64,000 nt of DNA. Origin: Colwellia sp. TT2012 (GTDB taxonomy: Bacteria > Pseudomonadota > Gammaproteobacteria > Enterobacterales > Alteromonadaceae). The DNA lies in the NCBI RefSeq assembly GCF_001440345.1, contig NZ_LJYX01000021.1, positions 1 to 64,000 on the forward strand. Direction: 5' to 3'. Shown here piece after piece: positions 40,913 to 47,518 of this stretch; position 1 is the stretch's first letter; each line of letters opens with the position of its first letter. Below the pieces are notes generated by a model. The model was not told the origin of the DNA. It searched no databases and saw only the letters and a program-made list of their open reading frames with translations. Both the position numbers and the translations under genes were made by a program.

Positions 40913-40941
40913 TAGACATAATATGTCGTTAATGGTATTAA
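40913..40941 (+). promoter_or_regulatory. palindrome GACATAATATGTC over a predicted promoter
   Basis: The 13-bp palindrome occupies 40915-40927. TAGACA (40913-40918) overlaps its left half and TATTAA (40936-40941) follows at 17 bases, a plausible -35/-10 pair. A second candidate is TTGACA at 40942-40947 with GCTAAT at 40965. The same 13-mer occurs twice before yjfI, so it is probably an operator of the cluster. Confidence 0.55.
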
Positions 40942-41009
40942 TTGACACTTGCCTATGATTTGTCGCTAATATTAATTAACTATTTCGATAACATAGCATT
41001 TTTGAGGAG

Positions 41010-41999
41010 ATGATGGCAGAAATGCACTTACTAAAAACACCTTTTTTATTGCTCTTGATCATAATTACCAGCCTTAGCCTTTTGGGTTGTGGCGATCCTG
41101 TGAAAGCGCAAATTGAACAACAACTACCTATCACCGAACAAAGAGTATCTCAATTAGGTGATGCCTTAAGTAATGGTCATATTCGCAATGCCAACTTAAT
41201 TAATCAATATGCTGATAAAGTCATGGTTAATAAAGCCAGTTTAGCGCCCTTGATTAACGAGTTTCGTAAAGATGCTTCAATCGACGGCCCTATGTATAAG
41301 GCGCTTTTAGATAGAGTGAATACAGCTAAGACGCAACCACAAATGTTTGACTCTTCTCAAGCGCTTTATAATGAATTGCTTAATATTTACCAAGCAGCAG
41401 ATCCTGTGCTCTACTCTGACGCCCTCAGTGATCCGCTCAATGTTTTAGCCGATATGTCAGATGGCCAATTACCCCGCATTAATTCGCTATCAAAAGCACA
41501 AAGCCAACGCGCCAATAATGCCCAAGATTTTGGCACTGGCGAGCAATTAATTGGTAACCCTAGTTACGGCAATTGGCAAACCGGCAGTAATGGTATGTCC
41601 TTTTGGGCTTGGTATGGCATGTATTCAATGGTCGGCAATTTATTTGGCGGCCGCACTTATTATAACGATTGGGGTAGAAATCGTAATTATAGTTATTACA
41701 ATGACTATGGTAGAACACGCTACAGCTCACCTGGGCAATTAAAAAAACAAACGGCACTCGATACTCGCACGAAGAAATCTTTTAGTCGTCGCGGACAAAA
41801 ATTCACCAGCCCTTACAGTAAGAACCGTGTTGGCTCTTCTAGTTTATCAAGCCAGAGTAAAACCGCCCAAAACAGTGCCAACCGCTTTCGTACTAATGCG
41901 GTTAAGAAAAGTAGTTATGCCAGTAAGTCGAGCAGGAAAAACTCAAGTTTTAGAAATTCAAGCACCAACACCTCACGCGGCTTTAGACGCGGGAAATAG
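41010..41999 (+). CDS. lipoprotein heading the PspA/aminopropyltransferase cluster
   Basis: 329 residues. A hydrophobic signal ends in a lipobox, SLLGC, so the mature protein carries a lipid on Cys. The first part is helical, the middle has aromatic Tyr/Trp/Asn text (SFWAWYGMYSMVG, YNDWGRNRNYSYYNDYGR), and the last 80 residues are very basic and Ser/Arg/Lys-rich, ending FRRGK. The tail could touch peptidoglycan or LPS. Three in-frame ATGs (41010, 41013, 41022) follow GAGGAG; the first two are very close to it. I do not recognise a family. It stands 42 bases before the DUF350 gene and is probably in the same transcript. Confidence 0.75.
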   Translation: MMAEMHLLKTPFLLLLIIITSLSLLGCGDPVKAQIEQQLPITEQRVSQLGDALSNGHIRNANLINQYADKVMVNKASLAPLINEFRKDASIDGPMYKALLDRVNTAKTQPQMFDSSQALYNELLNIYQAADPVLYSDALSDPLNVLADMSDGQLPRINSLSKAQSQRANNAQDFGTGEQLIGNPSYGNWQTGSNGMSFWAWYGMYSMVGNLFGGRTYYNDWGRNRNYSYYNDYGRTRYSSPGQLKKQTALDTRTKKSFSRRGQKFTSPYSKNRVGSSSLSSQSKTAQNSANRFRTNAVKKSSYASKSSRKNSSFRNSSTNTSRGFRRGK

Positions 42000-42041
42000 T
42001 GAATAAGTCATGAATCAAAAAAGAATAGGAACAGCAAAATT

Positions 42042-42959
42042 ATGAACACATTCATCGATCTCGTTGGTGTTAGCTTAAATAATATCAGCCCAGACTTACT
42101 TATTTATTTAGCCATCGACGTTTCCATTGCCATCTTGTTATTAGGCGCTATGCGCTTCCTTTTAGGCATTAGCGCGAAAGTAAATAGCACCAAAGAATTA
42201 GCCAAAGAAGACAATTTCGCCTTTGGTGTCAGTGTTGCGGGTAGTGTATTAGCGCTTGGTATTGTCCTTACTGGAGCTATTACCGGCGAAGCGGCAAGTA
42301 GCTATGCTATGGAAGCCATCGGCATGTTGGCATACGGCGGCTATGGCTTAATACTGATAAAAGTGGGCCGTATTATCCATGATAAAGTGGCGTTACAACA
42401 TATAGATAAAAATGCCTTAATTCTTGAAAAGAACCTCAGCATTGGCATTATTGACGCCGCTGGCGCCATCGCTACCGCCATCATTATTCGCGCGGTCTTA
42501 CTCTGGGTTGATGGCTTAGACCTAAGCACTTTTATTGCCATTACCAGCGGTTTTATTGTTGCTCAAACCATGTTAGTTATGGTCACCCGACTTAGGGAGA
42601 AGCAATACGCGAAAAACAACCAAGAAGATTGTTTACAAGAAGCCTTAAGTAATGGTCAGGTTGCCCTAGCAATTCGTTATAGTGGCCAAGTGATCAGCAC
42701 AGCATTGGCGGTAACCGCGGCCAGTCATTTCCTTATCTATAGCCCAGAGACCTTAGTGGTTAATTTACTTGGTTGGTTAGTATTTGGCGTAGTAATGACC
42801 CTGCTGGTGGCACTACTTACCGCTATAGCTAAACGTATTGTCCTTTGGGGTATTGATTTAGTTGAAGAAGTTGATCAACAACATAATATCGGTGTTGCCA
42901 GCATTGAGATGGCAACCAGTATTTCTATTGCCTTAATATTGACAGCATTAATGGCATAA
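42042..42959 (+). CDS. duplicated DUF350 (YjfL-like) membrane protein
   Basis: 305 residues, about eight hydrophobic helices in four two-helix repeats. The pattern NFAFGVSVAGSVLALGI is echoed by NLSIGIIDAAGAIATAI, VALAIRYSGQVISTALAV and HNIGVASIEMATSISIAL. E. coli YjfL has about half this length, so this is a double DUF350. The family's activity is unproven; a channel or exporter role has been proposed from its context. It lies between the lipoprotein and the aminopropyltransferase. AGGAAC precedes the ATG. Confidence 0.85.
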   Translation: MNTFIDLVGVSLNNISPDLLIYLAIDVSIAILLLGAMRFLLGISAKVNSTKELAKEDNFAFGVSVAGSVLALGIVLTGAITGEAASSYAMEAIGMLAYGGYGLILIKVGRIIHDKVALQHIDKNALILEKNLSIGIIDAAGAIATAIIIRAVLLWVDGLDLSTFIAITSGFIVAQTMLVMVTRLREKQYAKNNQEDCLQEALSNGQVALAIRYSGQVISTALAVTAASHFLIYSPETLVVNLLGWLVFGVVMTLLVALLTAIAKRIVLWGIDLVEEVDQQHNIGVASIEMATSISIALILTALMA

Positions 42960-43071
42960 CGAACCAAAAAATACCGCCAGCTTTACTACGCAGAGTTGGC
43001 GGTAACAATTAACACTACGCACATCACACCTTAATTAATTCCTTCCTTAAGAATAACTAATACTAACCACT

Positions 43072-44793
43072 ATGTCACAAAGCTCTTTACCTCAAAACTC
43101 TTTACCTCAAGGAAAGTCCCACCTGCTCGATGATATTTTATTAATATTAACCATGGCGGTGTTAGCGGGTTGTGGCCTTATTTATGAGTATTTACTTTCT
43201 CATTACGCTGGTCGAGTGCTAGGCGTTATGGAAAGCACTATCTATACCATGATCGGCTTAATGATCGTTTCTATGGGGCTTGGTGCCTTTGCGGCACGTA
43301 AAGTCCGCTGTGCTTTTAATGGCTTTGTCTGGCTTGAACTCATTATTGCCTTACTAGGCAGTTGCGCTATTTTAGTCATTGGCGGCTTAATTGCTATTAC
43401 GCAAATATTTCCAGAGCTTATTGCCGACATGTTATCCCTGCCACCCGATATGAAACCCCAAGGTGGCATTTTTAAACAATTGAGTTGGCTTGCCTTTAAT
43501 AGTCCTTATTTCTTCGGCATGCTACTGGGCTTTTTTATTGGTATGGAGATCCCCCTGATTGCTCGTATTCGTGAGCAGATTCATCAGCAACATCTGGCCA
43601 ATAACCTAGGCACAATTTATGGCGCAGATTACATCGGCGCCGGTATTGGCGCCGCTATCTGGGTGATATTTTTACTGAGTATTGATATCAGTAAGGCCGC
43701 AGCAATAACCGCTAGCTTAAACCTTATTGCCGGTGGTTTTTTTATTCTGCGCTATTGGCGGCGATTGCATTGGCGTAAAACCTTTGTGGCTTTACATTGC
43801 CTATTGGCTTTGGTGATTATTTTAATGTTTAACTATGGTAATCAATGGCTCAACCAAATGAATAGTTTGCTCTACCTGGATAAGGTAGTGCATACCGATA
43901 AAACTCGCTTCCAACAGTTAACCTTTACTGAGCGCCATATGGGGCTTGAGCAAGATAATATTATCAATTTTTACCTAAATGGCCGCTTACAGTTTTCTTC
44001 AATTGATGAACATATCTATCATGATTATCTTGTTGCGCCAGTGATGGCGGCGTCAGCACGACAAGAAAATATTCTTATCATAGGTGGCGGTGACGGTTTA
44101 GCCTTAAGAGATGTGTTAAAATACCAACCAAAATCAGTGACCTTAATCGATTTAGACAGTGAGCTAATTGATATTTTCCAACAGCCAGAGCAGCATGTAA
44201 ATCCACGTTTAGCTCGGCAAATATTGCAGTTAAACCAAAAAAGTTTACAAGATAAACGTGTCACTATTTATCGCGCTGATGCTTTTATTGCTATCAATAA
44301 ATTAATAAAAGACCGGCAGGTCTTTGATGCCATCATTGTTGATTTACCCGACCCAAGCCACCCAGATCTAAATAAACTCTATTCGGTTAATTTCTACGCT
44401 CGGCTTAATTTATTGCTGGCTGGCGATGGTTTAATCGCTATCCAATCAACCAGCCCCTATCATGCTAAAGACTCTTTCATTGCTATTGGTAAGACAGTGG
44501 CAGCAGCTAAGTTTGCCCATGTTGAGCAATATCATGACAATGTGCCCAGCTTTGGTGAATGGGGGTGGACCATAGCCGCAAAAAATGGTGCTAGCCCATT
44601 AACCAGATTAAACAAACTAAACCAGCTACCCATTAGCCATCAATGGTTAAATTTAGCTATATTAAAAGCGGCTTTTATTTTCCCTAATAATTTCTACCAA
44701 AACAAAGCAGATATTGGTATTAATATATTGGGTAGCCATACCATTTATCAGTTACATCAAAAGGCTTGGCAAGATCAACAAGGCTTAAATTAA
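43072..44793 (+). CDS. membrane-anchored aminopropyltransferase (spermidine synthase-like)
   Basis: 573 residues. The first 250 or so form about seven transmembrane helices (AGCGLIYEYLLSHYAGRVLG, MIGLMIVSMGLGAFAARK). From about residue 275 comes a spermidine synthase-type domain: LNGRLQFSSIDEHIYHDYL, IIGGGDGLALRDV (S-adenosyl-ligand loop), LIDLDSELI, DLPDPSHPDLNKLYS and IQSTSPY. The family transfers aminopropyl from decarboxylated S-adenosylmethionine to an amine. The acceptor here may be a polyamine or a membrane-bound amine. Fusion to a transmembrane half is seen in PspA-linked clusters. No strong ribosome site is visible before the ATG. Confidence 0.85.
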   Translation: MSQSSLPQNSLPQGKSHLLDDILLILTMAVLAGCGLIYEYLLSHYAGRVLGVMESTIYTMIGLMIVSMGLGAFAARKVRCAFNGFVWLELIIALLGSCAILVIGGLIAITQIFPELIADMLSLPPDMKPQGGIFKQLSWLAFNSPYFFGMLLGFFIGMEIPLIARIREQIHQQHLANNLGTIYGADYIGAGIGAAIWVIFLLSIDISKAAAITASLNLIAGGFFILRYWRRLHWRKTFVALHCLLALVIILMFNYGNQWLNQMNSLLYLDKVVHTDKTRFQQLTFTERHMGLEQDNIINFYLNGRLQFSSIDEHIYHDYLVAPVMAASARQENILIIGGGDGLALRDVLKYQPKSVTLIDLDSELIDIFQQPEQHVNPRLARQILQLNQKSLQDKRVTIYRADAFIAINKLIKDRQVFDAIIVDLPDPSHPDLNKLYSVNFYARLNLLLAGDGLIAIQSTSPYHAKDSFIAIGKTVAAAKFAHVEQYHDNVPSFGEWGWTIAAKNGASPLTRLNKLNQLPISHQWLNLAILKAAFIFPNNFYQNKADIGINILGSHTIYQLHQKAWQDQQGLN

Positions 44794-44851
44794 CCTTTAA
44801 AGCCAGATAATGACTAACGAATAATACCAAACAGTAACAATTACTTTATAA

Positions 44852-44908
44852 AACACCTTGACATAATATGTCAAGGTGTTAAATTTAACTCAGACGACAT
44901 AATATGTC
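44852..44908 (+). promoter_or_regulatory. two GACATAATATGTC palindromes and promoter of the yjfI arm
   Basis: First copy at 44860-44872 lies in a perfect palindrome at 44852-44880 with 14-bp arms (AACACCTTGACATA) about one central A. TTGACA (44858-44863) within it plus TAAATT (44880-44885) at 16 bases form a promoter-like pair. The second copy (44896-44908) lies in a 23-bp near-perfect palindrome followed by GGCTTTTT, which could also terminate transcription. I read the pair as operators flanking the promoter; a terminator role for either hairpin remains possible. Confidence 0.6.
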
Positions 44909-44947
44909 ATCTGGCTTTTTCACTAAAGAAGGAAGGATAGGAAATAC

Positions 44948-45361
44948 ATGAATATTCATACTATAGCCGATCACTTAAACAGCTTGGCAGATAATTCAGA
45001 TACCGGCATGAGCTTTGATTGCCAACCCATATCTGGCGAAGTAGATGTTCTGCAAATTAGTATCTTAGGCCGAGAGGAATTACCCATTTTTGTTTCGGTA
45101 ACCGAAGATCAAATTATTTGCATTAGTTACTTATGGGGCCTTGATGAAGTTAAACCTGAATGTGTTAATGCTATGCATGAGAGCATGTTAGAAATGAATA
45201 TCCCTATGCCCTTGTCATCATTTTCAAAAATTGGTGATAAATATGTAGTTTTTGGTGCTTTATCTATCAAGTCAAATTTTATTGATGTTGAACATGAGTT
45301 AGCGGTATTAAGCAATAATGCCGTAGAAGTTATTGATGATATGAGTGAATACTTGCTTTAG
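44948..45361 (+). CDS. yjfI: YjfI family protein (DUF2170)
   Basis: 137 residues, acidic, soluble. IHTIADHLNSLADNSDTGMS at the start and ISYLWGLDEVKPECVNAMHE in the middle match DUF2170/YjfI, which in many bacteria precedes a PspA-type gene as here. Its function is unknown. The start is clear: GGAAGGATAGGAAATACATG. First gene of the second arm, 53 bases before the PspA gene. Confidence 0.82.
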   Translation: MNIHTIADHLNSLADNSDTGMSFDCQPISGEVDVLQISILGREELPIFVSVTEDQIICISYLWGLDEVKPECVNAMHESMLEMNIPMPLSSFSKIGDKYVVFGALSIKSNFIDVEHELAVLSNNAVEVIDDMSEYLL

Positions 45362-45414
45362 TTAAAAGCAAAACAAATCACCTTTAATCATTCCCCCCTA
45401 GTTAGGAGTTAATA

Positions 45415-46104
45415 ATGAGTATATTTAAAAAAATTATGACCGCAATTCGCGGCGGTGCATCAGAAGCCGGTGAAGCAATTATCGATGCCAATGCAACCCG
45501 TATATTTGAACAAGAAATACGTGATGCCGAAAATCACCTTACCAAAGCAAAACGTGACCTAACCGGTGTTATGGCTGAACAAATGTCCGCAAAACGTGAA
45601 GTAGACCGCTTAAGCCGTGAAGTGACTGAACATGAAGGTTATGTAGCACAAGCTCTTGACAAAGGTGATGAGACTTTAGCCCTAGCGGTGGCAGAAAAAA
45701 TCGCTAACTTAGAAACTACTTTAGCTGATCAACAACAAGCCCACGATAGCTTTAGTGGTAGTGCTGATCGCTTGAAAGACTTAGTTAAGAAAAGTGAACG
45801 CCAAGTTGCTGAACATAAACGCCAACTTTCTATGGTAAAAACCACGGAAAGTGTACAAAAAGCGACCGCAGCCATTACCGATAACTTTTCATCAAGCAAT
45901 TCCAAGTTATTAAGTGCTAAAGATTCTCTAGAGCGCATTAAAGCGAAGCAACAAAAATTCGATGATAGAATGAAGGCTGCTGAACTACTAGAATCTGAAG
46001 ACTCGGATAGTTCGTTACAAGCACAATTAAAAGCTGCTGGCATTGGTGCACAAGATAAAAGTGCTAATTCTGTCTTAGAACGTTTGAAAGCTAAGCAAAA
46101 ATAA
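45415..46104 (+). CDS. yjfJ: PspA/IM30 family protein YjfJ
   Basis: 229 residues, almost wholly coiled coil. FKKIMTAIRGGASEAGEAII at the N-terminus is an amphipathic helix, then RIFEQEIRDAENHLTKAKRDLTGVMAEQ begins the PspA/IM30 core. These proteins assemble on stressed inner membrane and belong to the ESCRT-III superfamily. Because yjfI precedes it and YjfK-type follows, it is the YjfJ rather than the pspABC branch. AGGAG precedes the ATG. Confidence 0.9.
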   Translation: MSIFKKIMTAIRGGASEAGEAIIDANATRIFEQEIRDAENHLTKAKRDLTGVMAEQMSAKREVDRLSREVTEHEGYVAQALDKGDETLALAVAEKIANLETTLADQQQAHDSFSGSADRLKDLVKKSERQVAEHKRQLSMVKTTESVQKATAAITDNFSSSNSKLLSAKDSLERIKAKQQKFDDRMKAAELLESEDSDSSLQAQLKAAGIGAQDKSANSVLERLKAKQK

Positions 46105-46108
46105 TGTT

Positions 46109-46145
46109 AGCGTTAGTCCGCTAATAAGTATTAACGGACTAACGC
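46109..46145 (+). other. intergenic hairpin between yjfJ and the next gene
   Basis: Twelve-bp arms AGCGTTAGTCCG and CGGACTAACGCT enclose an AT loop. No T-run follows, so it may stabilise or divide the transcript rather than end it. Confidence 0.5.
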
Positions 46146-46238
46146 TTTGACATAATAAACAATACTCCAATGGGCATTATTATTTATCGCTACTTAATCC
46201 AGCTATAGATGAGTGCCCATTCTACGTTAGGTCATCAA

Positions 46239-46880
46239 ATGAATTTTTTAAAAAAAATATTTAATAAATCAAACAATGAACCGAGAAAGCTAACACAAGT
46301 TAATCAGTTACTTGTTGGTGATATTATTGCTTTAACGGACAGCTTTGCTTTACCCGAATCATTACGTGGGCAAGAGTTGCAAGTAAAAGCCGTTAATAGC
46401 TATGAGTTTGAAGACAAGGTACAAACTGAATGGGCTTTGATTGGTACTAATGATCTAGAGATATTTTTATCGCTAGAGCTTGATGATATTACCACGCTTA
46501 AATTATCACTAAAGATTCATCATGATGATATCGAAACTCTCTTTGATTTAGAGCATTTTGCGCAAATTTTTGATGAACCTGGGCAAGCTATTTTAGATAA
46601 AAAAGCCGATAACGAACTCACCGCAATGTGGAGTAGTGAACAATATCAACAAAGTGTTTTTGCCAAAGTTGGTTATTTTCATCGCAAAGATCATCGCAGT
46701 GAAGACTTGTCAGCCTATGAAGGCAAAGACAGCGGTGAGCAATTCGAGTTGTATAGCCTCTATAATGAAGATCAAAGCAAAGGTGTTGATGTTGAAGTCT
46801 GGCAAGATGGTGATACCGAAGTGTGCTTAACTTTATTTAGACCGCTCAGTGATATAGTGGATATGTACCCGGCAAGTTAA
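46239..46880 (+). CDS. YjfK-position protein (DUF2491/DUF4178-like)
   Basis: 213 residues from the ATG at 46239, which follows AGGT at suitable distance; an in-frame ATG at 46209 has no ribosome site. It is acidic and beta-rich (LVGDIIALTDSFALPESLRG, TEWALIGTNDLEIFLSLEL) and has no signal. The order yjfI-yjfJ-this gene matches E. coli yjfIJK, so I read it as the YjfK equivalent. The sequence could belong to DUF2491 or DUF4178, which occur in the same contexts. The function is unknown. Confidence 0.65.
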   Translation: MNFLKKIFNKSNNEPRKLTQVNQLLVGDIIALTDSFALPESLRGQELQVKAVNSYEFEDKVQTEWALIGTNDLEIFLSLELDDITTLKLSLKIHHDDIETLFDLEHFAQIFDEPGQAILDKKADNELTAMWSSEQYQQSVFAKVGYFHRKDHRSEDLSAYEGKDSGEQFELYSLYNEDQSKGVDVEVWQDGDTEVCLTLFRPLSDIVDMYPAS

Positions 46881-46916
46881 GCGGAAAGTTAATATAAAGA
46901 TTAAGCGGAAAATACT

Positions 46917-47249
46917 ATGGCGAGAAAAATACCCGATAAATGGCAATCCTCAGTTAAAGCGATAAAAGCGGTGCAAGTCGCTTTTGATATGGATGAAAAA
47001 ATCCAACTATCTATCCGTAAGGAAGCCCTTGATGCAGGTTTAAGCCCGTCAGAACAAATTCGTGATATATTGGGTTTACCGATAAATAAAAGACCTAAGC
47101 GCCCACGTCTGACGGTAAGTCTATCCCCAAGTGACTATCAAATTCTCGCCGAAAAATATCAACTCCCCGCTGAAGACCAGCTGGCTATTAAGAAGAAACT
47201 GATGGATGATTTAGTCAGTCATATTAATTCCAACTATTCAGGCGAATAA
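46917..47249 (+). CDS. small ribbon-helix-helix-like protein
   Basis: 110 residues, basic. Two stretches, MDEKIQLSIRKEALDAGLSP followed by SEQIRDILGL, and RLTVSLSPSDYQILAEKYQL, each look like a strand-helix-helix of the ribbon-helix-helix type. It could therefore bind DNA and might be the regulator of this cluster. It is also possible that it is only a small partner of the PspA protein. It starts 36 bases after the previous gene with GCGGAAAATACT before the ATG. Confidence 0.55.
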   Translation: MARKIPDKWQSSVKAIKAVQVAFDMDEKIQLSIRKEALDAGLSPSEQIRDILGLPINKRPKRPRLTVSLSPSDYQILAEKYQLPAEDQLAIKKKLMDDLVSHINSNYSGE

Positions 47250-47270
47250 TAAATAGTAACCTAAACATAT

Positions 47271-47483
47271 AAATCAACGGCTCTGTTGGAGAACACTGTT
47301 GTCTATAATGTAACACACTGATTTAAAGGAAGGTGTTGCTGATGTGATAAGATCGAGCTTCACAAGCATGGAGGGGATTATGTTCAGGACGAACGGTATA
47401 TCGCGGTGACAGGATGTCAATGAGCGTGTATGCGTCTCGCTCGTTTACTCAACAACACCAAACTACAACAGAGCCAAATCAAC
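47271..47483. mobile_element. MITE with IS6-like ends and 8-bp target duplication
   Basis: The element runs 47279-47475 (197 bp). The left end is GGCTCTGTTGGAG; the right end in reverse complement is GGCTCTGTTGTAG. Directly flanking it are identical AAATCAAC octamers (47271-47278 and 47476-47483). GGCTCTGTTG-type ends with 8-bp duplications fit the IS6 family. There is no transposase gene inside. It inserted at the end of the PspA cluster. Confidence 0.8.
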
Positions 47484-47518
47484 ATATTACCTTGGAATTG
47501 ATATTTTAGTTTTTTCGG

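Follow-up and report, generated by a model that had tools for sequence, protein, structure and literature searches.

A 64,000-nt stretch of the Colwellia sp. TT2012 genome (positions 1 to 64,000 of contig NZ_LJYX01000021.1; hereafter the window) contains a seven-gene cluster with yjfI and a PspA-type gene, and copies of a 13-bp palindrome upstream of both of its arms. We interpreted this palindrome, GACATAWTATGTC, to be the operator of an envelope-integrity regulon under an autorepressor of the ribbon-helix-helix (RHH) type, which would be the 110-amino-acid (aa) protein encoded at the end of the cluster. The probability of this interpretation was put at about 80%. The sites, the promoter position, the conservation, the gene set and the co-occurrence of the sites with the protein are direct observations.

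Exactly three exact copies of GACATAATATGTC were present in the window, where a preliminary description of this DNA had placed them. Site 1 (40915-40927) lies upstream of the lipoprotein gene, and Site 2 (44860-44872) and Site 3 (44896-44908), with centers 36 bp apart, lie upstream of yjfI. The description had held that many copies at random places would speak against an operator. A scan of the whole genome (4.42 Mb in 223 contigs) found only four exact copies, the fourth at C103:453892, and no copy of the reversed control. Under a random-sequence model with 38-50% GC, 4.42 Mb of DNA would contain 0.13-0.30 copies of GACATAWTATGTC.

When up to two mismatches were allowed, the counts in this genome were near those of the control (51 forward and 54 reverse, versus 51 and 34), and therefore only exact and one-mismatch sites were informative genome-wide. 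There were nine one-mismatch places, five of them inside open reading frames (ORFs). One at C188:202956 (L013) precedes a gene of the Bax1-I (YccA-like) family; the number of such sites is near background.

The GTDB collection (genome_contigs) was scanned for two GACATAWTATGTC copies 27-47 bp apart, i.e. with 14-34 bases between them. At least 117 stretches were found, versus 0.01-0.03 expected in the whole collection under a random-sequence model of 38-45% GC. This ruled out chance repeats, and we regard it as virtually certain that the operator is real. Among the genera with double sites are Shewanella, Pseudoalteromonas, Colwellia, Thalassotalea, Moritella, Kangiella, Aliikangiella, Pleionea, Motilimonas and Ketobacter. 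Of the named relatives seen, Colwellia marinimaniae (L229) was the nearest, with 97% identity in the 110-aa protein.

Among the 117 matches listed, to which all GTDB counts below refer, yjfI lay beyond the double site in 102, at a distance of 10-306 bp (median 15). The gene for the 110-aa protein was found in 89 of these 102 stretches. The other 13 end 1-1526 bp after yjfI, short of the place of that gene, which in the window is 1556 bp downstream of yjfI. One more stretch (L157) ends just after the sites, and in the remaining 14 loci, from 13 genomes, other genes adjoin the sites, a PspA gene in the case of L130.

Conservation was also followed in 41 near-relative genomes, of which 31 had the 110-aa gene, 31 had the motif and 30 had both. 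Thirty loci around the 110-aa gene, excluding that of the genome itself, were retrieved. In 27 of them, the 400 bp before yjfI contained at least two exact copies of GACATAWTATGTC; the other three had degenerate sites (L084), a single site (L085) or a locus cut by the contig end (L086). The 500 bp before the lipoprotein gene contained an exact copy in 22/25 near-relative loci and a site in 30 of the 39 GTDB stretches that extend so far. The proposal that one palindrome serves both arms was thus borne out in relatives. In the loci from other families (L080-L083), the surrounding sequence had largely changed and the sites were kept.

The position of the sites relative to the promoter was also conserved. 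A promoter of the form TTGACA-16-TAAATT, with a TG before the -10 box, was reported by the promoter scan upstream of yjfI (44858..44885, plus strand). The scan gave 18 promoter-like sites in the stretch, versus 20.3 in shuffles, and is therefore no evidence alone; the same arrangement recurs across the GTDB loci. The last four letters of the -35 box, GACA, belong to Site 2. A TT stands immediately before the first site in 100 of the 103 oriented GTDB cases and completes a TTGACA -35 box. The centers of the paired sites were 34 (46 cases), 35 (14) or 36 bp (24) apart in 84/103, and a -10-like hexamer (at least 4/6 matches, at 15-19 nt) followed in 79/103, versus 36/103 when the gap was shuffled once.

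The preliminary description had the palindrome overlapping a -35 box in both arms. This stood for the yjfI arm, where the scan gave TTGACA at 44858. In the lipoprotein arm, for which the scan reported no promoter, a possible promoter TAGACA-17-TATTAA (40913..40941, plus strand) was recognized by eye only; the site and TGNTATTAA are found there in many same-genus loci. Closer spacings were also seen in more distant genomes, with two sites 15 bp apart in G117, G280, G346 and G406 (one of the pair being mismatched in G117 and G406) and 18 bp apart in G237 and G219. Tandem sites 15-18 bp apart fall outside the gap range of the GTDB scan.

If transcription starts 7 nt after the -10 box, Sites 2 and 3 are centered at about -26 and +11, a placement that would suit a repressor. 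At sigma70 promoters, the binding sites of activators are usually further upstream. A real operator at which the 110-aa protein acts as an activator or dual regulator appeared unlikely to us: the single off-operon sites lie 4-213 bp from the nearest ORF start, with 1/57 farther, as an activator would allow, but the -26 and +11 positions and the -35 box embedded in the first site in nearly all listed cases (100/103) speak against it. Given that the protein is the regulator of the site, it would probably act by repression.

The palindromes might also be read as RNA hairpins (attenuators or terminators) or as debris of repeat elements. Site 2 lies within a 29-bp inverted repeat (44852-44880), Site 3 is likewise part of a longer inverted repeat, and one of these is terminator-like on the minus strand. 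Against such a role, terminator-like sites were at the shuffle level (6 versus 6.0), the sites precede unrelated genes, the flanking arms vary and the 13-mer is constant, and the first site is upstream of the transcript, because the -35 box is inside it. The varying arms, the -35 placement and the shuffle-level terminators made a hairpin role unlikely, and the whole explanation was given very little credence.

The link between the site and the 110-aa protein was examined in a sample of the class comprising 369 genomes, the present one included. The protein profile was found in 13/369 genomes and the exact site in 13/369, with both in nine. The exact site was thus present in 9/13 protein-positive genomes versus 4/356 protein-negative ones (Fisher p 1.5e-12). 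The latter four had one copy each and were taken as background, because the reversed control pattern occurred in 9/369 genomes. Among the GTDB matches listed, a double site was found away from yjfI in 13 genomes, each of which encodes the 110-aa protein.

All 13 protein-positive genomes of the class sample were among the 27 with DUF2170, the family of YjfI. The exact site occurred in 9/13 DUF2170 genomes with the 110-aa protein versus 1/14 without it (p 0.0012), and in the latter one (G241) it is on another contig. When sites with up to two mismatches within 500 bp upstream of DUF2170 were counted, the numbers were 13/13 versus 1/14.

This comparison bears on the view that the palindrome is bound by another regulator, such as YjfI itself or an unlinked factor, with the 110-aa protein in a modulating role. 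This view is favored by the presence of yjfI beside 102/117 of the double sites listed, and a DUF2170 mutant of Pseudomonas aeruginosa accumulates the operon partners, according to the accessible part of PMC10948618. On the other hand, of the 14 DUF2170 genomes in which the 110-aa protein is absent, only G345 has upstream sites. There is no site at Escherichia coli yjfI and none upstream of the second DUF2170 copies in G280 and G406, and the authors likened the solved structure of BacA to type III chaperones and regulatory proteins (PMC10948618, same part). The 13/13 versus 1/14 comparison made YjfI unlikely as the DNA-binding regulator, and we consider this view improbable, somewhat more so than activation by the 110-aa protein.

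A further link came from a variant site, CCCATAWTATGTC, which precedes DUF2170 in G115, G243, G345, G273 and G323. The four 110-aa proteins from genomes with this variant grouped on the tree with one change, and none of 500 shuffles gave as low a number. The tree had 25 hand-chosen rows; the grouping was present in 62% of bootstrap trees, and the branch support was weak (59/79). Such a grouping would be expected if operator and binder were matched, although its support is weak. For G273 and G323, the DUF2170 gene preceded by CCCATAWTATGTC and the 110-aa gene are on different contigs.

From the co-occurrence, the 110-aa protein is likely to be the regulator of the site, and it is the best candidate, in accord with the earlier proposal of a small regulator in the cluster. 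Its 44 aligned members have a conserved core in common. At E 1e-5 or better, 867 proteins matched the profile, with no Pfam domain among the best 120 listed. Two strand-helix-helix units were recognized by eye only, hence the word tandem used below is also by eye only. Internal duplication was not supported by a profile comparison of the two halves, which gave an out-of-register match of 20 columns at 38% probability.

Several points weigh against an RHH autorepressor acting on this site. The matches of the protein to RHH families were weak: that of the window protein was NikA-like at E 0.11, and the best among the 44 members were NikA-like at 0.0021 (5 members), RHH_1 at 0.037 (1) and FitA-like at 0.12 (2). 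A non-RHH phage family matched 10/44 members (best 0.0033), and the one solved-structure match had an E of 0.83. The limit of two mismatches in the 13/13 versus 1/14 comparison was chosen after the variants had been seen, and the genomes share ancestry, so that the p-values overstate independence.

Individual genomes count on the same side. In G034, the 110-aa gene is present and the sites are degenerate. G219 has exact sites beside a second yjfI, on a contig other than that of its 110-aa gene. In G345, variant sites are present and the 110-aa gene was not found; DUF2170 ends 1553 bp before the contig end there, and its family (f92) is that of G115 and G243, both with the protein. G022 has three sites and no detected 110-aa gene. 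Its glnE was likewise not found, and glnE adjoins in 20/23 same-genus loci, which suggests a possible gap.

For binding, repression and the signal, we infer the following. The 110-aa protein from the end of the yjfI-pspA operon would bind GACATAWTATGTC and repress the genes behind it, including those of its own operon. Of the two sites at the main promoter, one overlaps the -35 box and the other is near the transcription start, and therefore the bound protein would exclude RNA polymerase. Release of the repressor would follow a membrane signal, which YjfI and PspA from this operon may relay. The release would raise PspA/YjfI, the aminopropyltransferase, DUF350 and the lipoprotein. Depending on the species, it would also raise the SPFH, NfeD and YqiJ scaffolds, the M48 protease, NhaA, a YidC-like insertase, carbonic anhydrases and a second pspA-pspC operon.

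Whether this amounts to one programme appeared evenly balanced to us. In such a programme, a small, possibly tandem RHH autorepressor that takes its signal from YjfI (CesT-like) and PspA would run PspA, SPFH/NfeD/YqiJ, membrane proteolysis and insertion, Na+/H+ antiport and the CO2/bicarbonate balance, as a further kind of phage-shock-protein (PSP)-type control in Gammaproteobacteria.

The cluster had been proposed to be a self-contained regulon. This did not hold. In the genome itself, the fourth exact site lies 34 bp before the ATG of a 202-aa ORF for a beta-carbonic anhydrase (Pro_CA, E 1.4e-55), and a one-mismatch site precedes an NhaA-like ORF (L009; identity by eye); more were found in relatives. 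The operator very likely marks a regulon wider than the cluster.

Off-operon sites were read at 52 loci with 57 sites, from 19 of the 31 site-bearing near-relative genomes, and at three loci of G022. Outside ORFs of at least 60 aa lay 54/57 of these sites, and a TT stood before the site, toward the nearest ORF, in 34/57. Many target names were assigned from similarity by eye. Those of the following neighbors were checked by Pfam: SPFH/Band_7 (L306, L337), NfeD (L326), YqiJ (L292, from G022), NhaA (L313), peptidase M48 (L338), YidC-like 60KD_IMP (L323), YbjQ (L305), an ion channel (L341), Yip1 (L349), HlyD (L335), bPH_5 (L327) and a sulfate permease (L328), which has an M16-like ORF (by eye) on the other side of the site. 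The neighbors in L304, L308, L324, L331 and L345 gave no Pfam family.

Some targets recurred, as judged by eye: the SPFH gene of L306 in at least seven genomes, NhaA in at least six (including G022) and the membrane protein of L308 in at least four. A site was also present upstream of a small protein-PspA-PspC operon in nine same-genus genomes, including G022, that is orthologous to L361:3561-5340. In the present genome, no site with up to four mismatches was found in the 330 bp upstream of this operon.

Eight ORFs from the 14 GTDB loci without yjfI were tested by Pfam. These gave alpha-carbonic anhydrase (L169, L200), YidC-like proteins (L205, L223), a metallo-beta-lactamase fold (L124) and a PspA-like match below the cut-off (L218), with no family in L142, L158 and L179.

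Judging from the targets, the signal may concern membrane integrity and the balance of ions or pH. An operator that is nearly identical across many marine bacteria, a small candidate DNA-binding protein and other membrane-protection genes point to a stress regulon not yet described. The operator ties PspA/YjfI, the aminopropyltransferase and DUF350 to SPFH, NfeD/YqiJ, the M48 protease, NhaA and carbonic anhydrases. The cluster genes have few assigned functions, and the strongly conserved operator offers a direct way to approach them: it points to a candidate regulator and allows the inducing signal to be tested with a simple reporter.

In one genome (G040), YjfI, PspA, the 110-aa protein, a rhomboid, a protein of no Pfam family and SPFH follow one another in this order (L086:1-3484). 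This row joins as neighbors genes that elsewhere are scattered targets.

The seven ORFs of the cluster, all on the plus strand, were located where the preliminary description had them. They are a 329-aa lipoprotein gene (41010..41999; called by eye, with no Pfam match above the cut-off); a 305-aa double DUF350 membrane protein (42042..42959; PF03994 in two stretches, E 4.3e-32); a 573-aa polyamine aminopropyltransferase with an N-terminal extension (43072..44793; PF01564, Spermine_synth, E 4.4e-31; NCBIfam PRK03612 at 602.5 bits, cut-off 472), whose N-terminal membrane part was seen by eye; yjfI, a DUF2170 gene of 137 aa (44948..45361; PF09938, E 2.4e-37); a 229-aa PspA_IM30 protein of the PspA/YjfJ type (45415..46104; PF04012, E 8.4e-40); a 223-aa protein of no assigned family (46209..46880; no Pfam match above the cut-off); and the 110-aa RHH-like candidate repressor (46917..47249; likewise with no Pfam match above the cut-off).

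Of the names given earlier, DUF350, aminopropyltransferase, DUF2170 and PspA were thus supported by Pfam. The name YjfK-like for the 223-aa protein was not, as Pfam gave no DUF2491 match; there was also no DUF4178 match at E 1 or better. The 223-aa gene occupies the place that a DUF4178 gene has in the operon of Ravi et al. (2024), and its product may be a divergent DUF4178 relative.

The cluster is flanked by glnE and, by eye, an L,D-transpeptidase-like gene, and no PspF gene was found among the flanking ORFs. The ATP-grasp partner, reported earlier as not seen, was also missing from the whole genome by GSP_synth, which matched in 2/14 control genomes. The genome has three PspA_IM30 genes: the copy in the window, one beside a sigma54-activator gene and pspC (L360), and one in the small protein-PspA-PspC operon (L361). 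A non-coding stretch 3' of the 110-aa gene (window 47260-47500) is repeat-like by eye. Directly 3' of the 110-aa gene in G273 (L281:4454-5590) and G038 (L085:9737-10561) is an ORF that is potassium-channel-like by eye.

The same operon was described by Ravi et al. (2024; PMC11237479), with an RHH gene last in some cases. According to the accessible part of that paper, their CesT/Tir (YjfI)-PspA operon has in common with ours the lipoprotein, DUF350, the 7TM-aminopropyltransferase, DUF2170, PspA, a beta-rich protein and sometimes RHH. The marks of their group 2 were found in the window in the DUF2170-PspA dyad and in Spermine_synth with DUF350, and not in DUF4178. A word search of the same part found no mention of an operator or palindrome.

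What the present analysis adds is the operator common to both arms, the targets outside the operon and the link between site and protein. The small regulator gene, which the preliminary description had also thought new, is already in the accessible part of PMC11237479; the shared operator was in none of the literature searched. Neither operator nor regulon was found there, in a search that left out most subscription papers, all supplementary files and RegPrecise itself. Four spellings of the 13-mer matched one paper, which concerns Ephedra, and a term search of PMC3223726 gave no match.

Other known systems differ in their control. The P. aeruginosa bac operon also begins with DUF2170 and PspA-like genes, but the promoter proposed for it is of the sigma54 type, and the authors found no spermidine synthase within or near the operon (accessible part of PMC10948618). 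The E. coli yjfIJKL operon shares yjfI and the PspA-like yjfJ; increased expression of this operon is attributed to the loss of a single nucleotide from the promoter, 80 bp upstream (PMC12492005, in part). Unlike the present operon, it has no GACATAWTATGTC in the 200 bp before yjfI and a DUF2491 gene annotated after yjfJ, and the YjfC-like ATP-grasp gene of the E. coli-type yjf operon was not matched in the present genome (GSP_synth). Canonical PspF/pspABC is similar in its PspA_IM30 protein, and the genome has a sigma54-activator gene and pspC at L360. L360 is without the CATAWTATG core, whereas the window operon has a sigma70-like promoter with palindromes.

A link to phages was considered and rejected. 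One viral or mobile contig with a double site was found in a scan of viral contigs with gaps of 4-34 bases between sites, and no DUF2170 or PspA was seen by eye among its eight ORFs of at least 90 aa. This IMG/VR contig (IMGVR_UViG_3300019755_000002) carries four exact copies of GACATAWTATGTC (L356:3724-3937), three of them 34-35 bp apart, in the manner of iteron-like repeats. A different, RHH-like ORF of 228 aa was recognized by eye on the same contig (818-1504, minus strand).

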